This document shows, piece after piece, positions 7,946 to 12,094 of a stretch of DNA of 36,529 nt. Under the pieces are notes generated by a model. The model saw only the letters and a list, made by a program, of their open reading frames with translations. It ran no database searches and was not told where the DNA came from. This DNA comes from Gemmatimonadota bacterium (GTDB lineage Bacteria; 4572-55; J002): contig RFFQ01000096.1 in the NCBI GenBank assembly GCA_003697105.1, positions 1 to 36,529 of the forward strand, written 5' to 3'. Numbering within the stretch: the stretch's first letter is position 1; every line of letters begins with the position of its first letter. The translations under genes and the position numbers were made by a program.

Positions 7946-10900
7946 ATGAGTGTCGTACGTAAGCGTCCTCGGCGAGATTTTTCTCGTTTAAAGTCGGCGA
8001 TTGATATGCCAAACCTACTGGCGATCCAGATGGAGTCCTTTGAGCATTTTTTGCAAGGGCAAACCCATCCGGATGAGCGCCGAGATGAGGGGTTACAAGG
8101 TGTGTTTACGAGCATTTTCCCGATTAGTGACCCCAATGAAAATTTTACCTTGGAGTTTGTTCGATATACCTTGGGCGAACCGAAGTATACCGTTCAAGAG
8201 TGCCAAGAACGCGATGTAACTTATGCCGTTCCACTGAAAGTAACGCTCCGGTTGGTCATCCGCGAAACTGACAAATCTGAAAAACGCGTCAAGGATGTAA
8301 TCGAGCAAAATGTGTATCTGGGGGAGTTACCCATTATCACGGATAAGGGTACTTTTATCATTAATGGTGCTGAGAGGGTAATTGTCAGCCAATTGCACCG
8401 GTCGCCCGGGGTCTTCTTTGATGAAGAAATGCACCCGAAAGGCAAACGACTCTTTTCCTCACGGATTATCCCTTATCGCGGATCGTGGGTTCAGTTTAGT
8501 ATGGACATCAATGATGTCATGTATGTCCATATCGATAAACGGCGCAAAATTCCGGTAACCGTACTGCTGCGGGCACTGGGATATGCCACCGATGAGGTTT
8601 TACTGGATATTTTATGTTCAGAAACCATTCCGCTACATCAAATCTCCAAAACCGGAACGGTGCGGATTGAAGGGCGACGAACCGAAAAACTATTTGGGCG
8701 GATTATTACCGAAAATATTATAAATCCGGAAACCGATGAGGTTATTGCAGAAAAAGGAACACTGTTTGACGCCGATCACCTGGAAAAGATACGTGAAGCA
8801 AACGTTAAAGCGATTAAACTTCGGCTTTCAGACCAATCCCCGGCAATTGGCATGGTGGAAAATACGCTGAAAAAGGAGGGGGATGATTTTAAGTCCGAAG
8901 AAAAAGCATTGGAACGCATCTATAACTTATTGCGCCCCGGTGACCTCCCAAATATTGAAACCGCACGTCAACTGTTGGAACGCCTCTTTTTTAATCCCAA
9001 ACGTTACGACTTGGCAAAGGTTGGACGATATAAATTGAATCGCCGGCTCGGCTTGGATAATGTCGAATCGGCACATAATATCAAGAAAAAAGGCAAAGTC
9101 TCTGAAACATTGAGTGTTGAAGGGGAAATTCGGAATATCGAAGGTAATCCAGTCCAGAATGCGCAGGTTTCGATCACCTTTACCCGGCGGGATGCGAGCG
9201 GTACCGCCCAGTTTGGCCCCATTACAACCTATACGAATGCGGAAGGATACTATGAGTTTGAGACCCTACCCCAAGGAGATTATGCGATTACGGTCTCTTG
9301 CGAAGGTTACATTAATACCTCACTAACTGTTGAAAACGTAGAACAACCCTTGGAGATTAATTTCCGCCTCGACCAAACGATTCTGAGCCGGCGCGACTTT
9401 GTTGAAATTGTAAAGTATATGCTCCTGCTTCGTTCGGGTAAAGGTTTTGTTGATGATATTGACCATTTGGGTAACCGTCGAATCCGCAGCGTCGGTGAAC
9501 TTTTGGCAAACCAGTTTTCCATCGGTTTATCCCGAATGGCGCGGATCATCCGGGAAGGAATGACGCTCCATGATGCGGATAATATCACACCGTATGACCT
9601 GATTAATGTACGCACCGTGACCTCAGTTATTCAAAGTTTTTTTGGGTCGAGTCAATTATCACAATTCATGGATCAAACCAATCCCTTAGCTGAATTGACA
9701 CACAAACGGCGGTTGTCTGCGCTCGGACCCGGTGGTTTAACGCGAGAGCGCGCGAGCTTTGATGTTCGAGATGTGCATTATACCCATTATGGCCGGATGT
9801 GTCCGATTGAAACTCCAGAAGGACAAAACATTGGTCTGATTACTTCGATGAGTACCTATGCCCGCATCAATGAACATGGGTTTCTGGAAACGCCGTATCG
9901 TAAAGTGGTTGATGGACAGGTTTTGTCGGAAATCGAATACCTTTCGGCAGATAAAGAAGATTATTATGTGATTGCTGGGGCAAACACCAAAGTTGATGAG
10001 AACGGGATGTTTGTTGAGAGTGAAGTTATTGCACGGCATCGAGGGGATTTCAATTTTTATTCGCCCGATGAAATCCATTATATGGATGTCTCACCGAAAC
10101 AACTTGTGAGTGCGGCGGCGGCGCTGATCCCATTTTTAGAGCACGATGATGCAAACCGGGCGCTGATGGGGTCAAACATGCAACGCCAAGCGGTACCGTT
10201 GATGACCCCCCAATCTCCGGTGGTGGGTACTGGTATGGAGCAAAAAGTTGCGATTGATTCCAAAGCGGCGGTTGCCAGCGATGTGGATGGTGTCGTGGAA
10301 TACGTCAGCTCGGATACGATTCATATTCGCCCCGATGAACAGGAAGCACCCCGGAAAGTTCGATGGTTGGATATGGAACCCTCTTTGAAAACCTACCGCT
10401 TGACAAAATTCCGCCGTTCCAATCAGGATACGTGTATCAATCAACGCCCTATTGTGAAAGTTGGGCAACGCGTGAAAAAAGGACAACCCCTCGCAGATGG
10501 TCCCGCAACACAGTTCGGGGAATTAGCTTTGGGATCCAATGCGTTGGTGGCTTTTATGCCGTGGCGCGGTTACAATTTTGAAGATGCGATTGTGGTCAGC
10601 GAACGGGTTGTTTCCGGTGATAAGTTTACCTCAATCCATATCGAAGAATTTGATCTGGAAGTGCGCGATACGAAACGGGGTATGGAAGAAATTACGCGTG
10701 AAATCCCCAATGTTTCCGATGATGCACTCCGCAATTTGGATGAAGACGGTATTATTCGAGTGGGGGCCCATGTAAAAGCGGGTGACATCTTGGTCGGAAA
10801 AATCACGCCTAAAGGTGAAACGGAATTAACCCCGGAAGAGAATCTGTTGCGTGCTATCTTTGGTGAACGTGCGGGTGATGTTCGGGATGCCTCGCTAAAA

Positions 10901-12094
10901 GCACCTCCCGGCATGGATGGCATCGTCATTGATGTCAAAGTTTTTAGCCGCCGGGAACGGCATGATCGAGCCATCCGAACCGAAAAGAAAAAGATTGAAG
11001 AGATCAAAAGCATTTACCGCCACAAGTTAGGGGCGGTACTGGAACAACGCGATAATTTGCTTCACCAAATGAGTTCACTCTACCCGCTGGCAAATTCGTC
11101 CACATGGCAGAAAATCGAAAATGCGATTAGCGAAAAAGGGCAAAAACTCACCCAGAAATTGATCGATGGGCTTGAGTTTGAACGCTTGCGGGAACAAATT
11201 CAATTAGGTGGGGTTTTTGACCTTGATTTGGAAACCCGCCGCGAATTGAACGAACTGCTGATGAATGTGAATAGGGCTATCAGCGAAATTCAAAGCCAGT
11301 ATGAAAAAGAGGTTGATAAGATTACCCGCGGGGATGAGTTAGCGCCGGGTGTCTTGAAATTAGTTAAAGTGTACATTGCCCGCAAGCAAAAGCTCTCTGT
11401 CGGGGATAAAATGGCCGGGCGTCACGGTAACAAAGGTGTGGTTTCCAAAATTGTACCGGTTGAAGATATGCCTTATCTCGAAGATGGTCGTCCGGTGGAC
11501 GTGTTGTTGAATCCGCTAGGTGTGCCGTCCCGGATGAATGTGGGGCAAATTTTAGAAACTCACCTCGGCTGGGCAGGTGAACGCCTCGGGGTGAATTTCG
11601 CAACGAATGTATTTGATGGGGCTTCTATTGATCAGATTCAAGATTTGCTGGAAGAAGCCGGTCTGCCTCGAGATGGAAAAATGAGGCTCTTTGATGGTCG
11701 CACCGGAGAACCCTTCGACCTGAAAGTGACGGTCGGGGTGATGTACATGATGAAACTGGATCACTTAGTGGATGATAAAATCCATGCCCGATCTATTGGA
11801 CCGTACTCGCTGGTGACCCAACAGCCGTTGGGAGGTAAAGCACAGTTCGGTGGGCAACGGTTTGGCGAAATGGAGGTCTGGGCATTGGAGGCATACGGGG
11901 CCGCATATACCCTGCAAGAACTACTGACGGTCAAGAGTGATGATGTGTATGGGCGTTCCCGAATTTATGAAGCCATTGTCAAAGGTGATAATCCCCCAGA
12001 ACCGGGTATCCCAGAATCATTTAATGTGCTGGTGAAAGAGCTTCAAAGTCTTGCTCTCGATGTCGAATTGATCACGGACGACGAAGAAGAATAA
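7946..12094 (+). CDS. rpoB: RNA polymerase beta subunit with an inserted CarboxypepD_reg-like domain
   Basis: This is the beta subunit of the core RNA polymerase, 1382 residues. Conserved landmarks are present: LNRRLGL (365-370), [17 protein letters not shown] (from 502), the rifampicin region with [13 protein letters not shown] starting at 565, and [11 protein letters not shown] in the active-centre region. Asp576, His586 and Ser591 correspond to the Escherichia coli rifampicin residues Asp516, His526 and Ser531 and are wild type. A long, probably helical flap insert lies at about 1009-1125, as in many Gram-negative bacteria. The oddity is residues about 372-478: instead of a linker of some 10-15 residues there is an in-frame beta-rich domain resembling carboxypeptidase-regulatory-like domains. 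Reading frame and base use continue unchanged across it. GGAAGG precedes the ATG. rpoC follows after an 87-base spacer. Confidence 0.98.
9107..9370 (+). other. CarboxypepD_reg-like (Ig-fold) domain inserted in RpoB
   Basis: Residues 388-475 of RpoB read like a carboxypeptidase-regulatory-like beta-sandwich. They begin with [20 protein letters not shown] (391-410), continue with a [19 protein letters not shown] segment (428-446), then TVSCEGYI, and end in an alternating hydrophobic strand (LEINFRL). The G-x-P-V-x-x-A-x-V, T-x-A-E-G-Y-Y-x-F and L-P-x-G-D-Y patterns are hallmarks of that family, which is best known from secreted and outer-membrane proteins. Normal beta-subunit sequence resumes at [15 protein letters not shown] (479 onward). 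The family call is by pattern recognition only. A role in binding a partner protein or nucleic acid at the polymerase surface is speculation. Confidence 0.8.

Follow-up and report, generated by a model that had tools for sequence, protein, structure and literature searches.

What kind of domain interrupts the beta2 lobe of this bacterial RNA polymerase beta subunit (RpoB), where did it come from, and what could it do in a cytosolic core enzyme? The locus lies in a window of 36,529 nucleotides (the whole stretch of DNA that was analyzed), in which rpoB sits in the normal rplJ-rplL-rpoB-rpoC neighborhood. By the ORF list and the profile match, the 1382-residue RpoB is complete, with an uninterrupted frame, and its N-terminus is not hydrophobic. 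The coordinates of the features discussed below are collected in Table 1.

Table 1. Features of the rpoB locus, with residues counted along RpoB and positions along the window
Feature	Residues	Window	Strand	Basis
rpoB, RNA polymerase beta subunit	1-1382	7946..12094	+	1382-aa ORF; NCBIfam TIGR02013, 1848.8 bits
Second lineage-specific lobe insert, betai4 site, BEAN-like	~247-293	8684..8824	+	alignment to betai4 chains and the B. subtilis insert
In-frame insert of 101 aa, missing in relatives	372-472	9059..9361	+	boundaries versus PDB 9n9p_C; insert-less RpoBs
N-terminal linker of the insert, with basic stretch KKKGK	372-389	9059..9112	+	low model confidence; composition
CarboxypepD_reg (PF13620) transthyretin-like beta-sandwich (predicted)	390-475	9113..9370	+	Pfam, six-frame search, AF2, Foldseek

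Boundaries and fold of the insert

Compared with relatives and solved polymerases, the beta2 lobe is normal up to residue 371 and again from residue 473. The alignment to PDB chain 9n9p_C breaks after the former and restarts at the latter while the template runs contiguously at 372|373, so the insert comprises residues 372-472. A preliminary description of this DNA had claimed about 100 extra in-frame residues between normal flanks, which the 101 residues delimited by this alignment bear out; of the span that it gave (9060-9385), the 5′ end holds, but the 3′ end reaches ~24 bases into normal RpoB, the true end being 9361. The insert is positioned between VGRYKLN and a ten-residue segment of the beta2 lobe, at the same point as in B. 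subtilis, and in our local RpoB set the spacing from VGRxKxN to DDIDHL is 36 residues in most relatives versus 137 here. Its GC fraction is 0.448 as against a mean of 0.473 (SD 0.025) for rpoB windows, and its codon likelihood falls at the 80th percentile relative to the rest of the gene. In both GC and codon use the insert blends with the remaining rpoB, as had been proposed together with a non-recent insertion. We found no inverted repeat at the insert and no convincing repeats at its junctions, a 12-nt repeat (9062/9477) lying away from the 3′ junction. An intein or other self-removing element was rejected, as there is no family match of that type and the insert is much too short.

The residue pattern had suggested a CarboxypepD_reg domain, and the Pfam profiles concur: PF13620, with a curated cut-off of 32.3 bits, matches the whole RpoB at 45.4 bits (E 1e-11; residues 390-475) and the isolated segment at 50.9 bits (E = 2.1e-13; profile positions 1-81 of 82), and PF13715 is likewise over its own cut-off on the insert. 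A six-frame search of the genome puts the PF13620 match at the same place in rpoB. As a negative control, PF13620 was absent from 48 RpoB relatives scanned identically, this genome's being the one of the 49 N-terminal regions that matches. The AlphaFold2 (AF2) model of the insert, computed from its alignment with 31 PF13620 domains, of which this genome supplied 30 and a different genome the remaining one, displays seven strands with a mean pLDDT of 88.7 and core blocks above 94, an ordered domain of the expected family rather than a disordered or differently folded segment. Foldseek searches of the PDB with this model, with E from 3e-6, recover the transthyretin-like domains of carboxypeptidases D/N/M (E ~4e-6), further matches being to CnaB-like domains and intradiol dioxygenases, and 6hif_Y is matched at an rmsd of 1.7. 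By these predictions, the insert is a seven-strand transthyretin-like sandwich of the CarboxypepD_reg family. The earlier assignment thus stands as to the beta-sandwich family, although transthyretin-like/CarboxypepD_reg is a more exact label than the Ig domain that had been proposed.

The linker that precedes the sandwich has a pLDDT of 61-76 in the domain model and below 50 in the model with context. In a model of beta residues 1-700, the flanking lobe helices (357-368 and 482-496) are retained, while the insert itself, being covered by no second sequence, has a poor prediction; how it is oriented on the lobe in this model is left aside. The sandwich part is acidic (4 K+R versus 12 D+E), and this composition, together with the KKKGK linker, would suit a face that binds protein and a linker placed near downstream DNA.

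Distribution and origin

The phylum is represented by two genomes in our collection, this one and G001, of the same class and 93% complete, whose assembly has no rpoB match. Among 386 diverse bacterial genomes, 340 of them with an RpoB match, the insert is covered in none other among the matches listed. It is also absent from 200 genomes of a phylum that is Gemmatimonadota by tree position, and the RpoBs of 133 genomes of another, Zixibacteria by tree position, are without it. We found no RpoB carrying it in three smaller phyla (5, 7 and 5 genomes), no second case among the best 80 named RpoB loci and no relatives in viral contigs scanned with the insert segment; a same-fold insert, if strongly diverged, could escape all these searches. 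The weak matches obtained in Gemmatimonadota, Zixibacteria and the smaller phyla are to the domain alone, within ORFs of other proteins, and a large-ORF match that was followed up belongs to a lipoprotein, not RpoB. In a tree of RpoB minus the insert, the sequence is a long branch whose neighbors are Eisenbacteria and unnamed phyla, within the Gemmatimonadota/Zixibacteria/Latescibacterota region, with moderate support.

Domains of this sequence family and predicted fold are otherwise those of carboxypeptidases D/N/M and of the N-termini of many outer-membrane proteins. An exported or envelope context is usual, though not defining, for PF13620, and the insert departs from it in having RpoB as its host. 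The six-frame search yields 92 PF13620 matches in the 4.18 Mb of this genome, among which that in rpoB ranks 32nd; several others stand in tandem in a single ORF. When the host ORF starts of 33 other matches were examined (3 of these ORFs run beyond the stretch examined before their start), nearly all had a signal-peptide-like or lipoprotein N-terminus, whereas the rpoB copy lies inside a cytosolic core enzyme, the sole plainly cytosolic host found among those examined. Given the 92 matches, with nearly all of those examined in exported proteins, the module in this cytosolic enzyme is probably a captured one of envelope type; that it came out of an envelope protein and has since resided in rpoB for long appears to be the simplest reading.

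Might an envelope-protein fragment instead have been fused into rpoB by faulty assembly or binning? The insert is supported by one genome only, and the sole same-class genome compared offers no rpoB match against which to set it. Such an artifact would nevertheless have had to keep the reading frame at both junctions, strike a known insertion site exactly, leave a 1382-residue frame unbroken and show rpoB-like codon use, and the genome contains no close copy of the domain as its source (the nearest is 41% identical over 32 aa); we consider it highly improbable.

A known insertion site with a different fold

Alignments place the insert at betai5 (betaln5/SI1) of the beta2 lobe, a site that is already known, so that what appears new is the fold found there. 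The flanks of this RpoB align to 6wvj_C, the B. subtilis beta chain (PMC7749167), up to residue 283 on the left and from residue 377 on the right, and the B. subtilis betaln5/betai5 insert thus lies at the same point. PDB chains 8i23_C and 7l7b_C also have a long insert at this site, and an Oscillospiraceae RpoB (L038) has one of the Firmicutes type. Two actinobacterial RpoBs, L110 (6001-6411) and L087 (6001-6408), display ~45-50 unrelated extra residues here.

A 2024 survey places most lineage-specific beta inserts in a single fold group, BEAN, whose type 3 insertion spans residues 286-370 of Oceanobacillus beta (PMC11515920). The beta2 lobe has been termed a hot spot, and the B. subtilis insert was without a structural match (PMC7749167). 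The B. subtilis/Firmicutes betaln5 (betai5, SI1; type 3 BEAN) shares with our insert its insertion point and approximate length (~90-105 residues), but combines the BEAN fold with a PcrA-binding hairpin, whereas the present insert has a predicted CarboxypepD_reg transthyretin-like fold without such a hairpin. Examined for the BEAN features, a TGD/E motif and a bracket-like alpha-beta fold, residues 372-472 contain no TGD/E motif, and they have a predicted all-beta fold and the PF13620 match. The E. coli betai4/Si1 (type 4 BEAN) is a lineage-specific lobe insert as well, but differs in its earlier lobe position, its fold and its known contact with TraR (PMC6970531); our RpoB additionally possesses a domain of this betai4 type.

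We found no published case of the transthyretin-like fold in RNA polymerase beta, the Lane and Darst 2010 catalogue being judged through later papers. As far as the literature searched shows, the fold at this site is new for RNA polymerase beta. Novelty consequently attaches to the fold, for which no other case emerged, and not to the site, a hot spot that had been missed in the preliminary description. The betai5 site can evidently accept a fold unrelated to BEAN, apparently derived from envelope proteins; the case separates the usefulness of a place on the polymerase from that of a particular fold, and helps in testing whether lobe inserts are general docking sites or mere ornaments.

The two neighboring inserts also bear on helicase binding. 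In B. subtilis, the Tudor domain of PcrA is bound by SI1/betai5 through a VDPETGEIL hairpin (PMC8318588). By motif alignment, INPETDEVI (residues 259-267; window 8720-8746), in the betai4 domain of our RpoB, is a variant of this helicase-interaction hairpin that keeps the invariant Glu and reads Asp where the TGE triad, retained in most relatives, usually has Gly. No VDPETGEIL-like hairpin with the invariant Glu was found in residues 372-472. The insert might still be thought to substitute for the Firmicutes SI1/betai5 as a PcrA/UvrD landing site, given the shared position with the PcrA-binding SI1 and a PcrA/UvrD Tudor domain encoded in this genome; its lack of homology to SI1, its lack of the hairpin and the presence of the variant in the adjacent betai4 domain instead make this improbable. 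Because the variant persists in betai4, the helicase can probably dock independently of the new insert, the partner of which is probably something other than the helicase.

Possible roles on the beta2 lobe

With moderate confidence, we favor an account in which the PF13620 sandwich at betai5 would have been taken from among the many envelope CarboxypepD_reg domains of this genome, would fold independently behind its flexible N-terminal linker and would act as a surface appendage of the beta2 lobe. Less surely, this appendage may, like SI1 and Si1 for PcrA/UvrD and TraR, offer a docking face to a lineage-specific transcription or repair factor, which would act close to the channel for downstream DNA or to the rim of the secondary channel. 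A docking surface on the lobe is the most likely role by analogy with the SI1-PcrA and Si1-TraR pairs, the lobe contact of TraR being mostly via E. coli Si1 (PMC6970531), and the motif arrangement makes it more likely that the insert adds another face beside the helicase site. Against docking counts the location of the site's known docking motif, as a variant in the betai4 domain, and its absence from the new insert. We raise only tentatively the further idea that, in this deep, nearly unsampled phylum, the core RNA polymerase took up a protein-binding module of envelope type to serve as the dedicated receptor of a transcription partner restricted to the lineage.

Less probable than the favored account is a neutral or near-neutral ornament, a domain brought into a tolerant beta2-lobe loop by chance recombination and kept without specific function. 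Deletion of the large E. coli beta inserts causes relatively minor growth defects (PMC2939025), which leaves room for this reading, and the loop is a hot spot (PMC7749167) that has received unrelated inserts of ~45-105 residues in Firmicutes and actinobacteria. Yet the family pattern is intact and the fold confidently predicted even though the insert has come to share the codon use of rpoB, which indicates that the insert has long been kept folded; avoidance of misfolding alone could explain as much.

Downstream of rpoB, the rpoC frame has its listed start at a TTG (window 12110), ~30 residues ahead of the conserved N-terminus, and the true start probably lies further downstream.
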